Below are positions 3,145-63,767 of a DNA stretch of 64,000 nt, in pieces. The notes under the pieces are model-generated. The model worked only from the letters and a program-made list of their open reading frames with translations, was not told the DNA's origin and did no database searches. Made by a program: the position numbers and the translations under genes. Position 1 is the first letter of the stretch; every line of letters starts with the position of its first letter. The stretch is from Candidatus Peribacteria bacterium (lineage in GTDB: Bacteria > Patescibacteriota > Gracilibacteria > Peribacterales > Peribacteraceae). Location of the stretch: positions 882,146 to 946,145 of the forward strand of contig CP082927.1 in the NCBI GenBank assembly GCA_023038255.1, written 5' to 3'.

Positions 3145-3186
3145 CCCATAACCCATAACCCATAACTCGTAACCCATAACCCATCC
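3145..3186 (+). repeat. Heptanucleotide tandem repeat (CCCATAA type) before clpC
   Basis: Six in-phase 7-nt units: CCCATAA three times, CTCGTAA, CCCATAA, CCCATCC. They end 4 nt before the clpC ATG. The same degenerate unit recurs at 27934, 29257, 33885, 35632, 43969 and 63733. Confidence 0.9.
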
Positions 3187-3190
3187 CGTT

Positions 3191-5785
3191 ATGCACCCCT
3201 TCGACCGCTTCACCCCGAACGCAAAGCTCGCACTGCAGATTGCAGAGCAGGAAGCAAAGACGATGCAGAATACCTACATCGGGACGGAGCACCTGTTACT
3301 GGGCTTACTCAGCATTCCAAAATCACTCGCCTTCTCTATTTTTACCGGAGCCGGCGTCACACTGGAGAATGTCCGCATTCTTCTGAAGGCCTCGAAAACG
3401 CCGAGCATTGAGGGCAAGCACGTGAAGCACGGGCTCTCCACATTTTTGCACACGGTGATTGAGCAGTCTGTGGTGACCGCACACAAATTCCGCCACACGA
3501 ACGTGGGCACAGAACATTTGCTTTACGCCCTTGTCTCCACCGGAAAAAACGCCGGTACGATTCTGCTGGAAAACATGCAGGTCGATCCGGAAGAACTGAA
3601 GTCGCACATTGAAGAAATGTTCGGTCAGATTTCCCAGTTCCGCCAGCAGAATAAGAATGTCGAACAGTCACTGGAATCATTCTTCCACGGACTGCAGGGT
3701 GCCATTGCCGGCAGTCAGCCGACCGGTGCAGAACCGGAGGGCCTGAAGCGCCGCCGTGGTGACGGAAACAGCAAGACTCCTGCACTTGATTACTTTACAG
3801 ATGACCTCGTTGGAAAGGCGCGCGAGAATAAGATCGACCCGATTATCGGACGCGACAATGAGATTGAACGCGTGATCCATATCCTCAACCGCAAGACAAA
3901 AAATAACCCTGTGCTGATTGGTGAACCGGGTGTCGGAAAGACCGCGATTGTCGAAGGTCTCGCACAGAGAATTGCAACCGGCAAGGTTCCCGACTCTCTC
4001 AAAAACAAGCGCGTGCTCGTGCTGAATCTGGGATCACTCGTAGCGGGTACCAAGTACCGCGGTGAATTTGAGCAGCGGTTTGAAGACATTATCAAAGAGG
4101 CAGTCCAGAGCGACAAACAGATCATCCTTTTCATTGATGAAATCCACACGGTGGTCGGCGCTGGAAGTGCAGAAGGATCGCTCGATGCTGCAAATATTCT
4201 CAAGCCCGCCCTCAGCCGCGCCACCATTCAGGTGATTGGCGCAACCACTCTCGACGAGTATCGCACAGTGGAAAAAGACCGCGCCCTCGAGCGCAGATTC
4301 CAGCCGGTGCAGGTCGATGAGCCGACACTCAAAGACACCGTGGAAATCCTCAAGGGGCTCAAGCAGTCTTTCGAACAATTCCATCACCTCTCGATTGGTG
4401 ACGATGCCATTGAAGCTGCTGTACAACTCAGCAACCGCTACCTGACAGAACGTTTCCTGCCGGACAAAGCGATTGACGTGATTGATGAAGCATCCGCCGG
4501 AAAGAGCCTCCAGCACGCACGGATTTCCCCAGAACTCCAGGCTGTAGAAGATAAGCTGGAAACACTCGGACTGAAGCAGCAGGAAGCCGTAAAGGAGCAG
4601 AAGTACCATCAGGCACTCAAGCTCAAGCAGGAACAGCAGGAACTCAAAGAACAGCGCGAACGCATGCTTGCCGCTGCAGACGGTGACAAGCGCACGCCGG
4701 TCGCCATCACGCCTGATGATATCGCGGCTGTGGTTGCCCGCATGACGGGTGTTCCAGTTATGAAAATGATGAAGCCGGAAGTGAAGCGTCTCGCAACCCT
4801 CGAACAGATTCTCCGCGCCCATGTGATTGGTCAGGACGATGCGATCCGCAAAGTCTCCCGGGCCATCCGACGGTCCAGAGTCGGTATCGGCGACAGCCGC
4901 CGCCCGATCGGCTCCTTCCTCTTCCTGGGACCCACAGGAGTCGGAAAGACAGAGCTTGTCCGCACACTGGCACGCGAAGTCTTCCACCGCGACGACGCGC
5001 TGATCAAAATCGACATGTCCGAGTTCATGGAGCGCCACAACGTCTCACGTCTCATTGGCGCCACAGCAGGCTACGTGGGGTACGAAGAAGGAGGTCAGCT
5101 GACCGAAGCTGTCCGCCGCAAGCCATACTCCGTTGTGCTCTTCGATGAAGTGGAGAAAGCTCACCCGGAATTCTTCAATCTCCTCCTCCAGATTCTGGAG
5201 GACGGCACCCTCACCGACGGTCAGGGAAAGGTGGTCGACTTCAGAAACACGATCATCGTGATGACGTCGAACATCGGTGCTGCAAAGCTGACGAAGCAGG
5301 CTGCGAAGATCGGCTTCAAGCTGGAAGATGAAGCACAGAGTGAAGAGAGTGAATATGAAGCAAAGCGCCAGGAAGTGATTGCAGAACTCAAAGACAACAT
5401 GCGTCCGGAGTTCCTCAACCGCATCGATCATATTATTGTCTTCAACGCACTCAATCAGGTGCATATCCGCAAGATTGTGAAGACACATCTGGAAGAACTT
5501 GAGAAGCGCCTGAAGGAGCAGGGCTACGGACTGGAGATTGAACAGAAGGCTATCAATGTATTGGCGACCAAGGGCTTCGATCCGGAATACGGCGCCCGTC
5601 CGGTCCGCCGCGTCATCCAGGAACTCGTGGAAGATGAAATTGCGGAAGATATTCTGAAAGGTGTGTTCCACAAAGGAGATATCATCAAAGTTATCCGCAA
5701 ATCTGATGAAAAACTGGAATTAATGCACGGAAAGGCCAAAAAGGGCAGTTCTGTGAAGGAAGAACTGGAAATGGCGATCGTCTAA
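3191..5785 (+). CDS. clpC: ATP-dependent Clp protease ATP-binding subunit ClpC
   Basis: Hexameric AAA+ unfoldase that feeds substrates to ClpP. The 864-aa product has the double Clp N-domain repeat (about residues 5-145), D1 with Walker A GEPGVGKT (about 244-251) and Walker B ILFIDEIH, a short coiled middle domain rich in Gln/Glu/Lys (about 440-500), and D2 with Walker [10 protein letters not shown] (about 580) and [11 protein letters not shown]. An IGF tripeptide near residue 708 sits where the ClpP-docking loop is expected. No ClpP is encoded in the window. The upstream CIRCE operator predicts HrcA-controlled heat induction rather than CtsR control. A heptamer repeat separates the operator from the start codon. 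Confidence 0.97.
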
Positions 5786-10418: not shown

Positions 10419-10504
10419 GGTATCGGTCACCGGGATATCAGTCACCGGGTATTTTTGGCATATCAAATAAAGATATTCAACCCCGATGACCGGTGACCGA
10501 TACC
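10419..10504. repeat. Long-spaced 15-bp inverted repeat between convergent genes
   Basis: Arms 10419-10433 (GGTATCGGTCACCGG) and 10490-10504 are perfectly complementary, with a 56-nt interior that holds a second imperfect GTCACCGGG/CCCGATGAC pairing. It lies exactly between the stop codons of two convergent genes and probably acts as a bidirectional terminator or recombinogenic palindrome. Confidence 0.8.
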
Positions 10505-10510
10505 TGATAC

Positions 10511-10807
10511 CTAGTCATTCTTTTTATCATGCTTCTTCGTTTTCTCATCCAAAAACCCCGACACCCACGCCATCGCCTGGTCAGCCATGGAGAGCGGCTT
10601 GAGGATAACGGTCTGCAACTCTTCAGTCACAATCTGCGTCCGCTTCATCACCTTGCGCAGATCCACCACAATGAAAATCACATGATACAGCACCACAACC
10701 AGCATGACGCCGATCACAATGTAGAGTCCGTGGATAATATCGAGGGAAGACCAGAGCATACGGGTCAGGTGAAGAGTACACTTCATACTAGTCATTTCGA
10801 ATTTCAT
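10511..10807 (-). CDS. Single-pass membrane protein, hypothetical
   Basis: 98 aa, no family recognised. One strong transmembrane helix (about IHGLYIVIGVMLVVVLYHVIFIVV, residues 25-50) is followed by a cytoplasmic-type segment with basic and helical character and a Lys-rich C-terminus. The start at 10807 is favoured because AGGAG lies 7 nt upstream; later ATGs at 10795 and 10786 are possible. Its ATG overlaps the divergent yidD ATG in the tetranucleotide CATG. Confidence 0.65.
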   Translation of the reverse strand: MKFEMTSMKCTLHLTRMLWSSLDIIHGLYIVIGVMLVVVLYHVIFIVVDLRKVMKRTQIVTEELQTVILKPLSMADQAMAWVSGFLDEKTKKHDKKND

Positions 10808-24387: not shown

Positions 24388-24993
24388 ATGCACACACTCC
24401 ACCCAGACAACAACGGCACATTCGCAAGTTTATTCAATAACCCGCCCCAGGAGCGCCCGGAAGCAAACAAGCCCCCGGATTCCATCCTGTCCGAGCCGGT
24501 CGAAGACGATGCAGAGGATATTGCCCTCCTGAAGCAGATTCAGGCTATGCCTCCTGTGAGCGATGAAGACGATGACGACACGGCGGAAGAGGCTCCGGCT
24601 GACGATATGAACACCACACCGCTCGCACAAGAAGCGCCGAAGAAAAAGGCAGCTGCCAAGAAAGCGAAGCCGGTGAAGAAAGCGAAACCTGCAAAGAAAG
24701 CCAAGAAAGCTGCTCCTGCAAAAAAGGCAAAGAAAGTCGCAGCCAAAAAGAAAGTGAAGCCAGCCAAGAAGAAAAAGACAGTCGCAAAGAAGACAAAGAA
24801 AACGGTGAAGAAAGTTGCGAAAAAGACGGTAAAGAAAGCAGCCAAAAAGGCCCCGAAGAAGACAGCTGCCAAGGCAAAGAAGACTGCAAAGAAAGTGACA
24901 AAGAAGACAGCAAAAAAGGCAAAGCCGGCAAAGAAAGCAAAAAAGACAGCGCCGAAGAAAGCCAAGAAAACAGCCTCAAAGAAGCGTAAATAA
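24388..24993 (+). CDS. Histone H1-like Lys/Ala-rich DNA-binding protein
   Basis: 201 aa with two contrasting halves. Residues 1-85 are acidic (clusters of Asp and Glu around residues 40-75). Residues 86-201 are almost entirely Lys, Ala, Pro, Thr and Val in repeated AKKAKPAKK-type units, as in histone H1 C-terminal tails and bacterial H1-like proteins. The basic tail should bind DNA nonspecifically; the acidic head may modulate this. It is followed by a strong terminator. Neighbours are an Ala/Lys coil protein and topoisomerase IB, suggesting a nucleoid-related cluster. Confidence 0.88.
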   Translation: MHTLHPDNNGTFASLFNNPPQERPEANKPPDSILSEPVEDDAEDIALLKQIQAMPPVSDEDDDDTAEEAPADDMNTTPLAQEAPKKKAAAKKAKPVKKAKPAKKAKKAAPAKKAKKVAAKKKVKPAKKKKTVAKKTKKTVKKVAKKTVKKAAKKAPKKTAAKAKKTAKKVTKKTAKKAKPAKKAKKTAPKKAKKTASKKRK

Positions 24994-27890: not shown

Positions 27891-27933
27891 AAAATCATGC
27901 ACCGGTAACAGATAACCAATAACAATCCCCTTA

Positions 27934-27961
27934 CCAATAACCCATAACCAATCACCCATAA
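27934..27961 (+). repeat. Heptanucleotide tandem repeat before the GH57 gene
   Basis: Units CCAATAA, CCCATAA, CCAATCA, CCCATAA, followed by CCCGC and the ATG. Related degenerate units extend upstream to about 27901. Confidence 0.88.
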
Positions 27962-27966
27962 CCCGC

Positions 27967-29277
27967 ATGTCCCAATCCCCCCTCCTCTGCTTCTACTTCC
28001 AGGTCCATCAGCCCTACCGCCTGAAGGATCTGCGTGTGCGTGACATCGGCACGGACGGCATGGATTACTTCGATGATGAAAAGAACGAAGCCATCTTCCG
28101 CAAGGTTGCCGAGAAGTGCTATCTCCCGACAAACACCCTGATGCTGGAGCTCCTGAAAAAACATCCGGACTTTGCCATCAGTTATTCGCTCTCCGGTGTG
28201 TTTCTGGATCAGTGCAAAGAGTACGGACAGGACGTCCTCGATTCGTTTGTAGCCCTCGCTCAAACTGGTCGTGTCGAATTTTTGTCCGAGACGTATTATC
28301 ACTCTCTCAGCTCGGTAAAGTCGCTTCCGGAATTCTGTCAGCAGGTCAAAAAGCACATGCAGACAATCGAAGAACTGTTCGGTCAGACGCCGACCATGTT
28401 CCGGAATACCGAGCTGATTTTCAATAATGAGATTGCGCAGATGGTAAAGCAGATGGGATTCAAAGGCATTGTCGCCGAAGGCGCGGATCACCTGCTCCGG
28501 CACAGAAGCCCGAACATCCCCTACCGCCCGCCCGAGTTCCAGCTCTCGCCGGAAAAGGAAGAAATAATCGCAGAGTACCGCCCGCATATGAAACCGAGTG
28601 ACTCGATTCATATTCTCCTCAAAAACTACCGACTGAGCGACGACGTTGCCTTCCGCTTCTCAGACAAAAACTGGGCAGCATTTCCGCTGATGAGCCACAC
28701 GTATGCAGACTGGCTCCAGGGCAACAGCGGCCACAGCATCAACCTCTTCATGGACTACGAAACCTTCGGAGAACATCAGTGGGAACACACCGGTATTTTC
28801 GACTTCCTGCGCTCACTGCCGGATGAATGCGAGAAGCGGGGCATCAAAGCTGCAACCCCCTCCGCTGTGCTTGATCTCTGGAAGGACAGTGAGACCGATA
28901 CCTATGATGTGCATAACACCATCTCCTGGGCAGATACCGAACGCGATCTCTCCGCCTGGCTCGGAAACCATATCCAGCGCTCCGCTCTCGACGCTATCTA
29001 TGCGATGGAAGAAGCAGTCAAAAAGACCGGCGATCAAAAACTGATTGATACCTGGCGCAAACTCCAGACGTCCGACCACTTCTACTACATGTGCACCAAA
29101 TACTGGAGTGACGGCGACGTACACAAATACTTCAGTCCCTATGACTCCCCCTACGAAGCCTACCGAAGATTCAGTCACGCTCTGTGCGATCTGAAGTCAC
29201 GCGTGACCATGACCTCCGAATCCGACATTCACACACATCAAAAAAACAATTCCATCCCCATAACTCATAACCAATAA
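27967..29277 (+). CDS. Glycoside hydrolase family 57 (alpha-amylase/amylopullulanase-like)
   Basis: 436-aa GH57 enzyme acting on alpha-glucans. Recognisable regions are FYFQVHQPYR (about residues 9-18), MFRNTELIFNN with the catalytic Glu near residue 149, and LFMDYETFGEHQW with the conserved Asp/Glu near 260. No signal peptide, so it acts in the cytoplasm, presumably on stored glucan. Located between the GT4 synthase and GH15. Its last ten residues (SIPITHNQ) are encoded by a heptamer repeat, which also supplies the stop codon. Confidence 0.93.
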   Translation: MSQSPLLCFYFQVHQPYRLKDLRVRDIGTDGMDYFDDEKNEAIFRKVAEKCYLPTNTLMLELLKKHPDFAISYSLSGVFLDQCKEYGQDVLDSFVALAQTGRVEFLSETYYHSLSSVKSLPEFCQQVKKHMQTIEELFGQTPTMFRNTELIFNNEIAQMVKQMGFKGIVAEGADHLLRHRSPNIPYRPPEFQLSPEKEEIIAEYRPHMKPSDSIHILLKNYRLSDDVAFRFSDKNWAAFPLMSHTYADWLQGNSGHSINLFMDYETFGEHQWEHTGIFDFLRSLPDECEKRGIKAATPSAVLDLWKDSETDTYDVHNTISWADTERDLSAWLGNHIQRSALDAIYAMEEAVKKTGDQKLIDTWRKLQTSDHFYYMCTKYWSDGDVHKYFSPYDSPYEAYRRFSHALCDLKSRVTMTSESDIHTHQKNNSIPITHNQ

Positions 29278-29291
29278 CCCATAACTCGTTC
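29257..29291 (+). repeat. Heptanucleotide tandem repeat across the GH57 stop codon
   Basis: Units CCCATAA, CTCATAA, CCAATAA, CCCATAA, CTCGTTC; the stop of GH57 is inside the third unit. Confidence 0.88.
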
Positions 29292-33875: not shown

Positions 33876-33884
33876 GAGTTACCG

Positions 33885-33919
33885 CCAATCAACCAGCAAC
33901 CAGAAACCAGCAAACAAGT
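33885..33919 (+). repeat. Degenerate heptanucleotide repeat upstream of maf
   Basis: Units CCAATCA, ACCAGCA, ACCAGAA, ACCAGCA, AACAAGT. Same period as the clpC and GH57 repeats but shifted in sequence to CCAGCAA. Confidence 0.75.
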
Positions 33920-33926
33920 AACACAA

Positions 33927-34517
33927 TCACCACGTACGCTGCACTCCTTTGTTCGCTTTGATAATCTCATCCAGCGTCGGTGCCGGCTGCGTCTCTGCGC
34001 CATTCGGACCGGTAATCACAGTGCGTCCGCGGACACGCTTGATATTCACCACAGACTGACAGAGTTCATAGAAGCCAGGGAGATAGTCCTTCAGGGATTC
34101 CGGACAGGTGTTGATACGCTGGAAACGGCGGAGCTGGTTCACATCAAACGTGGTCAGATCCTCCTTGGTGAGGACAACCTTGCCCGTACCTGTCACGGTG
34201 ACAGCCTTTTCATTCTCATGCGTCTTCAGGAAAATCTGGATACCGGATAAATCGTTCACATCCGGACAGGTAATATCTTTCCCATTCGCCTGGAGCTCTT
34301 CACACAAGTCGCGTGCGACCTGGAAGTCGCGGCGGTTATCGCGGTAGAAGCGGTAGTTCGCCAGAGCCTTCTCCTGAATAGTGGTACCCGCAACAAGCGA
34401 TGCAGCGAGCGCAGTATCTGTAACAGACACCGGCGGTTCGACCGCAAACGGGAATCCTGCAATGAGTGCGAGGACTGCTCCGAGGAAGTATTCAGACTTC
34501 TTGAAGGACTTTTTCAT
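33927..34517 (-). CDS. Exported hypothetical protein
   Basis: 196 aa. The N-terminus has a basic head (KKSFKKSEYF) and a hydrophobic core (LGAVLALIAGFPFAV), giving a signal peptide or anchor. The mature part is mixed alpha/beta with four Cys (LCEELQ, ITCPDV, INTCPESL, ELCQSV) that could pair. The C-terminus includes a GRTVITGPNGAETQ segment. No family recognised. The start at 34517 is chosen to begin the signal sequence; TACCAT lies 8 nt upstream. Confidence 0.72.
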   Translation of the reverse strand: MKKSFKKSEYFLGAVLALIAGFPFAVEPPVSVTDTALAASLVAGTTIQEKALANYRFYRDNRRDFQVARDLCEELQANGKDITCPDVNDLSGIQIFLKTHENEKAVTVTGTGKVVLTKEDLTTFDVNQLRRFQRINTCPESLKDYLPGFYELCQSVVNIKRVRGRTVITGPNGAETQPAPTLDEIIKANKGVQRTW

Positions 34518-35552: not shown

Positions 35553-35631
35553 GGGCTGTGTTGCTGCTAAAGCTATATCTTGGGTTATGGGAATAGTGAA
35601 AGAAGACGTATTTACAAAAAAGAATTCCACC

Positions 35632-35659
35632 CCAATAACCCATAACCAATTACCGATTA
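35632..35659 (+). repeat. Heptanucleotide repeat overlapping the stop of the RluA-family gene
   Basis: Units CCAATAA, CCCATAA, CCAATTA, CCGATTA, the last containing the minus-strand stop codon. An inverted unit (TTATGGG) occurs at 35584. Confidence 0.85.
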
Positions 35660-36313
35660 CTTTTTTGCGCGTAGTTCGCGCAAAACCTTTTCAAACACCG
35701 GTGAAATCGGCGCTTCGATATGCAGCTTCTCTCCCGTGATCGGATGTGGCAGATCGAGTGAGTACGCATGCAAAAAGAAACGGTGATATTTGAAGTGCTT
35801 TTTAAACAATTTGTCCTGCTCCTGATTTCCATACAGTGGATCGAGCAAGAGCGGATGCCCGATGAACTTGAGATGCTGACGGATCTGATGCTTGCGGCCG
35901 GTGTCGATTTTCACTTCTACATACGACGCCGTCGGGAATGTTTCGATCACTTTGAAATGTGAGACGGCCGGAATGAGATCCTTGCTTGTACGTGCAGCAA
36001 GGGAGCGGTCAATGGTGCCGGATTTTCTGTCCATGTACCCGGCAGCCAGCGCGCGGTATGTCTTCACCCACCCCTTGAATTCCTTCGCGCGGATATTGCG
36101 CACAGCCTCCGCCGTCTTTCCGAATACAATGATACCGGACGTTCCAAAGTCCAGACGGTGCACCACGCGGAGCGTGGGATAGTCTTTCTTCAGGAAATCG
36201 AACAGCGGCTTCTTCCCAAATCCCCCTGCAGCCACGACAAGCTCACCCTCCAGCTTATTTACAATAAGCAGGTGGTCGTCTTCAAAAAGGATACGGTCCG
36301 GGCGGATAGGCAT
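35657..36313 (-). CDS. RluA-family pseudouridine synthase
   Basis: 218-aa pseudouridine synthase. The catalytic motif is HRLDFGTSGIIVFGKT (Asp in HRLD), followed by the KTYRALAAGYM strand and the GRKHQIRQHLKFIGHPLLLDPLYG C-terminal motif. There is no S4 domain, so it resembles RluA/RluC-type stand-alone enzymes; the RNA target cannot be named. Two ATGs (36319 and 36313) are 6 nt apart; a TATTCT directly before the first and 6 nt before the second favours 36313. Confidence 0.92.
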   Translation of the reverse strand: MPIRPDRILFEDDHLLIVNKLEGELVVAAGGFGKKPLFDFLKKDYPTLRVVHRLDFGTSGIIVFGKTAEAVRNIRAKEFKGWVKTYRALAAGYMDRKSGTIDRSLAARTSKDLIPAVSHFKVIETFPTASYVEVKIDTGRKHQIRQHLKFIGHPLLLDPLYGNQEQDKLFKKHFKYHRFFLHAYSLDLPHPITGEKLHIEAPISPVFEKVLRELRAKK

Positions 36314-36319
36314 GCGCAT

Positions 36320-42815: not shown

Positions 42816-44333
42816 ATGTCCCTCTACCGCCAATACCGCCCGAAAACCTTCGCCGACGTCGCTGGCCAAAGCCCGATTGTCGACACGTTGAACCAGGCTG
42901 TGTTGCAGGACAAACTCGCACATGCGTATCTGTTTGCCGGTATCCGCGGAACAGGAAAAACATCCATCGCACGCATTCTTGCAAAAGAACTGCTCACGCG
43001 CGGGGTGGAAGATGAGGTGCTGACGCGCAATATTCTTCAGGCTATTGAGGAAGGAAATCTGGTGGATTTGATTGAAATTGATGCAGCGAGCAACCGCGGT
43101 ATAGACGATATCCGCAGCCTGCTGGAAAAAATCCAGTTCACGCCGGTGGTGGCAAAGGCAAAGGTCTACATCATTGATGAGGTGCACATGCTCACAAAAG
43201 AAGCATTCAACGCGCTCCTGAAAACTCTCGAGGAACCGCCGGCCTATGCCTTCTTCATCCTGGCCACGACAGAACTCCACAAAATTCCCGCCACTATCCA
43301 GTCCCGCTGTCAGCGTTTCCTGTTCCGGCAAATCCGCGAGGAAGACGTGGTTGGCAGGCTCCGGTTTATTGCCGACGCCGAATCCATCAGCATTGATGAC
43401 AAAGCACTGAAAGCCATCGCCCATCACAGCGGCGGCAGTATGCGCGACGCCATCTCACTCCTTGATCAGCTGCGGTCTCTCACCAAAGACATCACGATGC
43501 AGGATGTGAAAGAGCGCATCGGGGAATCGGGACATGAATACGTTGAGCAATTACTCACTGCCATTCAGACCGGCGATACCGGCACGATTGTGACCATTGT
43601 TCGCAGTATGGAAGAGTCCGCAGTCCCCTTTGAAAACGTCACGCGGCTTCTGCTGGAAGAAGTACGGAAGCAATTGCACACCGCCGTGCAGGACAAGAAA
43701 AACACTGCCCCGTTTGTCCGCGTGCTCGACGCATTCATGGATACCATCCGCGACCTGCGCATTGCACCAGTCCCAGGACTCGTTCTCGAATCGACACTGC
43801 TGTCTCTCACGCAGCCGCAAACTGTAGCACCTGTAGAGATGGCAAAGCCTGTGATCTCACAGCCAGCAGCTCCTGTGATACAAAAAGTACCCGCTCCAGT
43901 CGTCACGCCAGCTGCACCCGTCACTGAATCAAAACCGATCGCATCCCCAGTCGCCGATCCAGAGATTCCCAATAACCAATTACCCATAACCGATAACCCA
44001 ACCGCTCCAGCTGCCGTCGACCTGATGTCCCTGAAAAACGCCTGGCCCGACATCGTCGCAAAAACGGAACCTGCTTACGTCCGCATGTCCCTGAAAAACG
44101 GCCATCTGCACGCCGTCGAAGGAAACAACATTATTGTCGTCTTCGGCTCCTCCTTCCACCGCGACAAAGCATCCTCCCCGGAAGGCGCACGCAGCATAGA
44201 CACCGTGATGGAATCGATATTCAAAGTACCGCTGCGCATCAAGTGCGTCCTCGAATCTGATGTCCGCAGCTCGGGCGTTGTGCCGCACGCAGAAGCCGTC
44301 AACCTCGCCGAAGCCGCAGCTGATATTTTTTAA
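42816..44333 (+). CDS. dnaX: DNA polymerase III subunit gamma/tau
   Basis: 505-aa clamp-loader subunit. MSLYRQYRPKTFADVAGQ is the classic opening; Walker A is GIRGTGKTS (42-50), Walker B is VYIIDEVHML, the SRC motif is QSRCQRF. The zinc module normally found between Walker A and EIDAASNRG is reduced and contains no Cys. The tail after residue 340 is Pro/Ala/Val-rich with a heptamer-repeat-encoded stretch near residue 385, then a C-terminal domain. No tau/gamma frameshift site was obvious. TATACT lies 9 nt before the ATG. Confidence 0.95.
   Translation: MSLYRQYRPKTFADVAGQSPIVDTLNQAVLQDKLAHAYLFAGIRGTGKTSIARILAKELLTRGVEDEVLTRNILQAIEEGNLVDLIEIDAASNRGIDDIRSLLEKIQFTPVVAKAKVYIIDEVHMLTKEAFNALLKTLEEPPAYAFFILATTELHKIPATIQSRCQRFLFRQIREEDVVGRLRFIADAESISIDDKALKAIAHHSGGSMRDAISLLDQLRSLTKDITMQDVKERIGESGHEYVEQLLTAIQTGDTGTIVTIVRSMEESAVPFENVTRLLLEEVRKQLHTAVQDKKNTAPFVRVLDAFMDTIRDLRIAPVPGLVLESTLLSLTQPQTVAPVEMAKPVISQPAAPVIQKVPAPVVTPAAPVTESKPIASPVADPEIPNNQLPITDNPTAPAAVDLMSLKNAWPDIVAKTEPAYVRMSLKNGHLHAVEGNNIIVVFGSSFHRDKASSPEGARSIDTVMESIFKVPLRIKCVLESDVRSSGVVPHAEAVNLAEAAADIF
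43969..44003 (+). repeat. Heptanucleotide repeat inside dnaX
   Basis: Units CCAATAA, CCAATTA, CCCATAA, CCGATAA, CCCAACC. They read through in frame as PNNQLPITDNPT in the linker of the protein. Confidence 0.85.
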
Positions 44334-59623: not shown

Positions 59624-59777
59624 CTCCATTGCTACCGACAAAGTGAATGATCACCCCAAGCCAAAAGCCTGGGAGTATAATATTATGATGATTTATAGAA
59701 ATATGTCAATTATAGATGACAAAGCGGATTTATCTCTACCCTATCCCCTAAAAGCTAAAACCTATAAGCTATAAGCC

Positions 59778-60455
59778 ATGTTATCGATAGTTGCCACCCC
59801 CATCGGAAACCTTGGAGATATCACACTACGAGCAATCCAGACATTCAAAGATGTCTCGGCGATTGTGTGCGAAGACACGCGCGTGACGGGCAATCTGCTA
59901 CATCAGCTCGAACTTCCAAAGAAAGAACTGATCAGCCTGCACGGCTATACAGATCCACGAAAACTCGACTCAGTGATCACAAGACTTGTTCAAGGTGAAC
60001 ATATCGCCCTCGTGAGTGACGCAGGCACGCCGGGTATTTCTGATCCAGGCTACCTCCTCGTCAGCCGCTGCCGCGAAGAAGGCATCAAGATGGAAGTGAT
60101 TCCGGGCGCATCCGCGTTCCTCGCTGCCCTTTCGGCGTCGGGCCTGCCCATCAATCATTTCCTCTACCTCGGATTTTTGCCGCTCAAGAAAGGACGCAAG
60201 ACGATGATTGCGGGATTCGCAGACACCAAAGAGACGATCGTGTTCTATGAATCGGTCCACCGCATCGAGAAAACGTTGATGGAACTGCATGAAGCGCTGA
60301 AGGATCAGCCGCAGCGTGCGGTGGTGATTGGGCGTGAATTAACAAAAATGCACGAGGAGATGACACACGCAACCGTTGAAGCGCTACCCGATGTTGCAAA
60401 GAAAATCATGAAAAAAGGAGAATTTGTCGTCGTGATCGGTCCCATGGAACGCTGA
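59778..60455 (+). CDS. rsmI: 16S rRNA (cytidine-1402-2'-O)-methyltransferase
   Basis: 225-aa SAM-dependent methyltransferase of the tetrapyrrole-methylase fold. LSIVATPIGNLGDITLRAIQTFKDV is the family opening; CEDTRVTGNLL, LVSDAGTPGISDPGYLL and GFLPLKKGRKT are also diagnostic. It lacks the extra C-terminal domain of longer homologues. It overlaps queA by one base (TGATG), so they are coupled. A TATAAT lies at 59676, about 100 nt upstream. Confidence 0.96.
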   Translation: MLSIVATPIGNLGDITLRAIQTFKDVSAIVCEDTRVTGNLLHQLELPKKELISLHGYTDPRKLDSVITRLVQGEHIALVSDAGTPGISDPGYLLVSRCREEGIKMEVIPGASAFLAALSASGLPINHFLYLGFLPLKKGRKTMIAGFADTKETIVFYESVHRIEKTLMELHEALKDQPQRAVVIGRELTKMHEEMTHATVEALPDVAKKIMKKGEFVVVIGPMER

Positions 60456-63148: not shown

Positions 63149-63727
63149 ATGATCGCAAGTCTGCGGGGAACCATCGGCAAAACGACTCCCGGCAGCATTA
63201 TTGTGGACGTACAGGGCGTCGGCTACGGCGTCTCGGTGCCTATCACCATGTGGGATGATCTGGAGGAAGGGGTGGTTGCGCAACTGCATGTCAGCACCTA
63301 CGTGCGCGAAGACCGGTTCGATCTGTTCGGATTCACCGATATGCAGACCAAACACCTGTTTGATGCACTCATTCAGGTCAACGGCATCGGTCCGCGGATG
63401 GGACTCGAGCTCTGCGCCGTCCCGCGCGGCATTCTGGTGCAGGCAATTAATGAAGAAGATCCTGCCGTTCTCACATCCATCAAAGGAATCGGCAGAAAGA
63501 CAGCAGAAAAATTACTCCTTGAACTCAAGTCTCTCGCGGAGAAACACATGGAAATGTTCTCGACAGAAGCGATGGCGATTTCCGGTTCCCGCTTCGACCG
63601 CGACGCAATTGCCGCCCTCTCCCAACTCGGATTTGCCAGCCCGGACATCATGCGCGCCCTCGAATCATTACCATCAGATCTCACATCCACCGAGGAGCGT
63701 GTGACCGCCGCACTACGCAATCTATAA
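63149..63727 (+). CDS. ruvA: Holliday junction DNA helicase subunit RuvA
   Basis: 192-aa RuvA. The OB-fold opening is MIASLRGTIGKTTPGSIIVDVQGVGYGVSVP; helix-hairpin-helix motifs are VNGIGPRMGLELC and IKGIGRKTAEKLLLELK; the C-terminal RuvB-binding domain starts near DAIAALSQLGF. Start at 63149 fits the family N-terminus; TATGCT is 8 nt upstream. ruvB and ruvC are not in the window. Confidence 0.97.
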   Translation: MIASLRGTIGKTTPGSIIVDVQGVGYGVSVPITMWDDLEEGVVAQLHVSTYVREDRFDLFGFTDMQTKHLFDALIQVNGIGPRMGLELCAVPRGILVQAINEEDPAVLTSIKGIGRKTAEKLLLELKSLAEKHMEMFSTEAMAISGSRFDRDAIAALSQLGFASPDIMRALESLPSDLTSTEERVTAALRNL

Positions 63728-63732
63728 GCATC

Positions 63733-63767
63733 CCAATAACCAATCACCAGTAACCAATAACCCGCCC
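63733..63767 (+). repeat. Heptanucleotide tandem repeat before the last gene
   Basis: Units CCAATAA, CCAATCA, CCAGTAA, CCAATAA, CCCGCCC, ending 2 nt before the ATG at 63770. Confidence 0.88.

Follow-up and report, generated by a model that had tools for sequence, protein, structure and literature searches.

Dispersed heptamer arrays at gene edges and within genes of a Candidatus Peribacteria genome

Short arrays of a CCCATAA-type heptamer recur along a 64,000-nt stretch of a Candidatus Peribacteria chromosome (hereafter the window, positions 882146-946145 of a single-contig genome of 1,239,242 bases, 99% complete), which raises the question of what kind of element they are and how copies of it came to lie where they do. 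An earlier note on this DNA had described telomere-like repeats at seven loci between genes, always with the C-rich strand on the plus strand, and had proposed strand-linked spread or a replication bias instead of a promoter element. In this study, we followed the arrays across the genome, into related genera and into the published descriptions of comparable repeats.

Arrays in the window and their format

A search of the window for three units with at most 4 mismatches returned 7 arrays on the plus strand and 0 on the minus strand, against 0 in 20 dinucleotide shuffles, a 14-mer scan gave 24 matches where 0.85 were expected, and TRF also detects the arrays, which are thus real (Table 1). Period-7 arrays were confirmed at 3145, 27934, 29257, 35632, 43969 and 63733, with the C-rich strand as the plus strand at all six, while the seventh supposed CCCATAA locus, 33885, has CAACCAG as its unit. 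As described before, four arrays lie close upstream of start codons (ATG at 3191, 27967, 29323 and 63770), but the array at 43969 is situated in frame inside dnaX and not between genes, and the inverted unit at 35584, formerly regarded as isolated, is the degenerate partner arm of the 35632 array.

Table 1. Heptamer arrays and associated features of the window
Feature	Window position	Strand	Units and context	Basis
C-arm	3145..3186	+	CCCATAA x3, CTCGTAA, CCCATAA, CCCATCC; 4 nt upstream of ATG of ClpB/ClpC-type ATPase gene (3191-5785)	Pfam for gene
Two tandem C-arms	27902..27968	+	Upstream of GH57 glycosidase gene start (27967-29277)	
C-arm	29257..29291	+	Overlaps 3' end of GH57 gene; 31 nt before GH15-type gene (29323)	
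CAACCAG period-7 array (other unit)	33883..33918	+	Separates two minus-strand genes; 8 nt from stop of the upstream one (33927-34517)	
Degenerate partner G-arm of 35632 array	35578..35591	-	CCCATAACCCAAGA on minus strand	
Inner flank, A-run and TTCC	35611..35631	+	ACAAAAAAGAATTCCACC; precedes C-arm; flank recurrent in the element	
Array	35632..35660	+	Adjoins, and is in register with, the stop of a pseudouridine synthase gene on the minus strand (35657-36319); reads as a trailing G-arm in gene sense	
Array inside dnaX (42816-44333)	43969..44003	+	In frame; encodes PNNQLPITDNPT in proline/alanine-rich linker	
C-arm	63733..63767	+	Between ruvA (63149-63727) and next gene (start 63770)	

Other repeats were also seen in the window. 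Between convergent genes at 10421-10512 stands a facing pair with CCGATGA/CCGGTGA units (TATCGGTCACCGGG ... CCCCGATGACCGGTGACC), probably an element of the CCCATAA-array kind that has diverged. A period-7 array of the unit CTAAAAG/CTATAAG at 59746-59780 ends at an ATG at 59778 and represents a further heptamer family in the genome, and the gene at 24388-24993 encodes a product with long lysine/alanine-rich tandem repeats that resembles histone H1-like proteins.

Across the whole genome, the 14-mer CCMATAACCMATAA with up to 1 mismatch has 102 forward and 52 reverse matches, and 90 arrays (57 plus, 33 minus) were found in 316 kb, a sample composed of stretches around pattern matches plus background, so that array sampling used the pattern itself. 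The claim that the C-rich strand is always the plus strand is thus true of the window and fails for the genome, whereas the placement between genes, despite the dnaX copy, holds for the genome-wide majority, 73 of the 90 arrays being intergenic although about 85% of the sampled DNA falls within called genes. Genes were called by a simple in-house caller with a dicodon model, on which the gene starts depend, and the sequence was read as stretches of about 436 kb in all, about 35% of the genome, together with the whole-genome pattern counts. Only 2 arrays were present in 170 kb picked independently of arrays, thus the window is locally rich in them.

The format of the arrays is constrained. They have 3-6 units in 89 of 90 cases with a fixed internal order, and thus lack the long, pure runs that the term telomere-like would imply. 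The consensus of about 35 nt reads CCCATAA, CCCATAA, a variable third unit CCNATHA, CCCATAA and CCCRTCA; in intergenic arrays aligned at the first strong unit, CCCATAA makes up 60%, 52%, 10%, 40% and 3% of units one to five, respectively, and CCCRTCA-like forms dominate at the fifth. The inner (5') side of the element often bears an A-run and TTCC, and an A-run of at least 5 within 32 nt upstream accompanies 24 of 67 arrays vs 11.5% of random intergenic stretches. Arms are direct heptamer arrays of about 35 nt in which we found no self-complementarity or palindrome, and the spacer between paired arms is not conserved. Folded as RNA, paired arms reach -27 to -49 kcal/mol, no better than swapped arms (p = 0.99), and their similarity is likewise not above that of swapped arms (p = 0.98), which indicates that arms are drawn from a genome-wide pool and rules out that one arm arose as a local inverted copy of its partner. 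Single CCCATAA heptamers outside arrays are not enriched (16 observed vs 11.5 expected). Taken with the fixed five-unit order and the likeness of paired to swapped arms, this identifies the array as the dispersed unit.

It has been proposed that the GGGAATC repeats of Xanthomonas and Nostoc are G-quadruplex elements, oligonucleotides of which fold into G4 in vitro (Rehm et al., PMC4692102), and the GGGTTAT units of the present arrays resemble telomeric G-strands. However, four G3 tracts with loops up to 12 nt occur in only 21 of the 90 arrays (2 of 90 with loops of 7) and in 2 of 37 arrays of relatives, and placement is the same regardless, thus a G-quadruplex role is extremely improbable here.

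Placement and polarity at gene edges

Between co-directional genes, the C-arm (CCCATAA in gene sense) has its median position 19 nt before the start codon and the G-arm (TTATGGG in gene sense) 4 nt after the stop codon, stop-side arrays being as common as start-side ones. Arrays that follow stop codons or lie inside genes rule out a promoter element, in agreement with the earlier note. Among 72 intergenic arrays, the 3' end of the C-rich strand is directed into the nearer gene in 52 vs 20 (p = 2e-4), and opposite-sense arrays within 130 bp of each other are always ordered G-arm then C-arm, 15:0 in this genome and 18:0 at loci bearing the same repeat that a scan of 85,000 genomes located in other genera, mostly of other phyla (Bacteroidota, Desulfobacterota and Cyanobacteria among them). 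While the idea of a spreading repeat is upheld, its orientation is set by the nearer gene edge and not by the strand. The plus-strand-only pattern of the window is local chance, 33 arrays lying on the minus strand elsewhere, and is explained by its plus arrays, which lead plus-strand genes or trail minus-strand ones. A replication bias survives in weak form, the C-strand lying on the C-rich replichore strand in 51 of 78 arrays (p = 0.009), but it is confined to one chromosome half (41:17 vs 10:10 in the other), and replication-strand spread was rejected on this weak and one-sided bias.

Arrays are also in register with codons at gene edges. For 15 of 27 trailing G-arms the stop codon is in phase with the heptamer (p = 7e-7), TGA or TAA opening a unit as in TGACGGG or TAATGGG, and the ATG is in register with the leading C-arm in 6 of 15 (p = 0.013).

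Such placement might be kept by selection on RNA at gene borders, in which a G-free C-arm would provide an unstructured leader that aids translation without a Shine-Dalgarno (SD) sequence, and a G-arm with a T-run would end transcription. The median distances of both arms from start and stop codons are as expected of such an element. SD-like motifs were found in only 9 of 151 array-free leaders, which are also poor in G relative to C (skew -0.19), thus this lineage seems to initiate translation without SD; further, a run of at least five T follows 15 of 26 G-arm ends vs 34 of 108 other ends, and the excess of upstream A-runs of five or more (24 of 67 arrays vs 11.5% background) points in the same direction. 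On the other hand, 17 of the 90 arrays lie within coding sequence in both senses, many C-arms are by inspection upstream of the likely -10 and not in the leader, a minority of genes has an array, array-free trailers show no G excess, and the arms lack hairpin co-variation. We consider a selected gene-border RNA element rather unlikely. Rho-utilisation sites were ruled out separately, as a TIGR00767 profile search of this 99% complete genome gave only sub-threshold matches (38-44 bits vs a cut-off of 509), that is, no Rho above the family cut-off.

Copies inside genes and heptamer dialects of relatives

The 17 arrays inside genes occupy complete open genes in both senses, those of SecA, AlaRS, MurD, SufS, TsaB, UvrC and DnaX among them, and encode peptides such as PITHNSLPIT and VMGYGLSVMG; PITHNSLPIT-like peptides are thus repeat-derived, which is relevant to annotation and to structure prediction. 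The SufS and SecA copies add residues relative to homologs, the former in a loop longer than in relatives and the latter in a stretch that is gapped when compared with solved structures, whereas the MurD copies do not. The AlaRS loop is only a few residues longer than in PDB structures, a difference that leaves insertion and replacement unseparated. In-frame copies in housekeeping genes recall the Rickettsia palindromic element, which is an inserted palindrome of 100-150 nt, while the present arrays measure about 35 nt and are no palindromes. In a locus of another genus (L102 of genome G014), the SufS loop holds a different interspersed sequence (CHPEPDEGRHAQDV..., CATGTCATCCTGAGCCCGACGAAGGACGACATG-like), which suggests that this loop is a general landing place for repeats.

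Dispersed inverted pairs with a spacer, the intergenic bias, in-frame insertion and the lengthened SufS and SecA proteins would be consistent with transposition of the REP/BIME or MITE type, driven by a Y1 (RAYT) transposase or another one. We regard this as quite improbable. The genome, a single contig that is 99% complete, has no match to the Y1 transposase (PF01797), the arms form no hairpins alone and are not palindromes with a GTAG-like foot, the spacer is not conserved, and the MurD sites are without net insertion.

Relatives were sampled as 400 kb from 14 genomes, 10 of them in the same family and all from other genera. Period 7 is prominent among periods 4-12 in these genomes, with 31 arrays vs 0-5 at periods 6 and 8-12 and 0 in shuffles, while the unit varies by genome (TTTGGAA, TGCAAAA, AATGAAT, AGTATTC, AGTTATA); facing pairs occur there as well. 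Genus dialects are real, at least three genera having a genome-wide heptamer of their own. The unit CCCATAA is also found in cyanobacteria (L178, L200, L213) and Bacteroidota (L183, L202, L219), in some arrays of up to 44 units, thus the unit itself arose or moved widely.

Orthologous sites were compared at the SufS-SufU junction and in the loops of MurD and SufS; length is mostly constant in MurD, and the loop is longer in SufS. At the SufS-SufU junction, three genera or more (our genome, G008 and G016 among them) have arrays whose units differ. In MurD, the loop flanked by SPGIPP and TQIF has a strong period of 7 in 12 of the 47 genomes, vs 0 at lags 5, 6, 8 and 9, and under a looser cut holds an array in 14 of 33 genera, with at least ten different units mostly at constant loop length; 9 of 15 array loops measure exactly 24, the commonest loop length of genomes without an array. 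On a quick MurD tree built without the loop, array presence requires 11 changes, about as scattered as shuffled labels (12.8), although well-supported branches force only 3. The same permissive sites have thus been used repeatedly in different dialects.

Genus dialects and in-place change at permissive loops might also arise if the heptamer were an uptake sequence (DUS) recognised by the competence machinery and accumulated by biased transformation, with dialects as in Neisseriaceae. Our arrays share with DUS the inverted pairs at gene ends that characterise such sequences, and ComEC is encoded in this genome (G000:C1:988383-989174) and in 37 of 39 genomes searched. However, single units are not over-represented outside arrays (the 16 vs 11.5 given above), the arrays are whole, with a fixed five-unit format, and the copy number is low, all of which leaves an uptake function with a small probability.

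Units of the MurD loop differ in how far they extend through their genomes. GATGCAA is both the loop unit and a genome-wide unit in G045, with about a dozen loci, and is nearly absent from five other genomes, and AAACTCA is the loop unit and a genome-wide unit in G043 and G058. On the other hand, in G006 a perfect AAACTCA array in MurD is the only occurrence of the unit in the genome, in better agreement with a local origin than with genome-wide copying, and a local origin of arrays is possible in such cases. Growth and shrinkage of simple tandem repeats by 7-nt replication slips would explain this restricted, perfect array, and period 7 is the commonest long SSR period in bacteria according to literature cited in PMC4679880. 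As a general account, slippage is very improbable given the fixed five-unit order with its divergent third unit (CCCATAA 10% vs 40-60% at units one, two and four), the genome-wide dialect, the absolute polarity of pairs, and the narrow range of 3-6 units in 89 of 90 arrays.

A proposed copying process and comparison with known repeats

We propose that the arrays belong to a dispersed heptamer-array element, here in the form peculiar to one lineage, of which entire arrays are copied into permissive DNA, and give this reading a probability of about one half. The spreading unit would be the whole array of about 35 nt and not the single heptamer, and copies would be written into DNA that tolerates them, both variable protein loops and intergenic DNA as far as the very stop and start codons. 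The G-rich strand would typically begin at the gene edge and extend away from the gene, a rule to which 20 of the 72 intergenic arrays run counter, and translation alone does not account for the G-richness of trailing arrays. The same permissive sites would be refilled in changing genus dialects, often without net length change, and insertion and replacement may both occur, SufS and SecA being longer and MurD not. As to the mechanism, DNA synthesis would putatively copy whole arrays out of the genome-wide pool. Its most plausible form is repair in which the G-rich strand is made as a short patch or by extending a 3' end, starting from an anchor that may often be a stop-codon-like TNA; if both 3' ends of a break were extended in this way, exactly the order G-arm then C-arm would result, and selection would only remove harmful copies. 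A more specific and quite unlikely variant is that these bacteria, and others with heptamer arrays, have a dedicated templated process, telomerase-like at chromosome breaks, which adds G-rich heptamers to 3' ends from a genus-specific template. If true, templated 3'-end addition would give arrays that leave gene edges, facing pairs, period 7, and sites rewritten in each dialect.

Heptamer repeats at gene borders have been described before. The STRR of heterocystous cyanobacteria are short tandem heptamers scattered between genes, and the likeness in form of our arrays to these cyanobacterial repeats, drawn in the earlier note, is upheld, the two being set side by side by description only. In Xanthomonas and Nostoc, GGGAATC and GGGGA(T/C)T heptamers lie mostly between genes (Rehm et al. 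2015, PMC4692102). At 0-50 bp after stop codons, which they overlap, the coding strand carries the G-rich sequence, and at 0-50 bp before starts the C-rich one; Xanthomonas has about 70 inverted pairs. The same placement rule, the overlap with stop codons and the facing pairs (Xanthomonas) recur in our genome, where inverted pairs in convergent (G..C) orientation and gene-edge placement were both found. The differences lie in the unit and the phylum, in the length of the Xanthomonas/Nostoc arrays, which are sometimes long and have been interpreted as G4 elements (PMC4692102), and, on our side, in about five units with a variable third, most arrays without G3 quadruplex capacity, many in-frame gene copies, and related genera that use G-tract-free units.

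In Geobacter metallireducens, 49 elements consisting of four GGACCGG heptamers each lie both inside genes and between them, class 3 sites have five heptamers, and Gmet_I sites occur mostly in pairs (PMC2700814). Our arrays resemble these in the four- or five-heptamer format, in sites both in and between genes, and in pairing; the Geobacter elements have been interpreted as IHF/HU or RNA regulatory sites, and the text of PMC2700814, as far as available, contains no dialect, polarity or orthologous-site comparison. In marine Beggiatoaceae, TAACTGA repeats of 2-6 units stand mostly in one orientation just before starts, replacing the Shine-Dalgarno sequence, and a translation role kept by selection has been proposed (MacGregor 2015, PMC4679880). 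While the units are similar (TAACCCA here vs TAACTGA there), inverted pairs are almost absent from Beggiatoaceae (one; PMC4679880), and stop-side arrays are as frequent as start-side arrays in our genome. Lineage-specific dialects of a short dispersed sequence are also known in Neisseriaceae DUS (PMC3630211), but these are single 10-12-mers in thousands of copies, whereas our single units are not enriched.

The repeats thus belong to a known, unexplained kind of gene-border heptamer, to which this study adds the fixed format of five units, a pair polarity that holds without exception across phyla, arrays in register with the stop codon, and shared sites written in genus dialects. Our literature search, in which subscription journals are thinly covered, returned no paper uniting format, polarity, register and dialects. 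In cyanobacteria, Xanthomonas, Geobacter and Beggiatoaceae, such repeats were each described and explained on their own, as G4, as IHF sites or through translation. The common rule of period 7, about five units, G-arm then C-arm in 33 of 33 pairs, stop register and dialects suggests one shared process behind them, which is testable in that each dialect should track a trans-acting factor.
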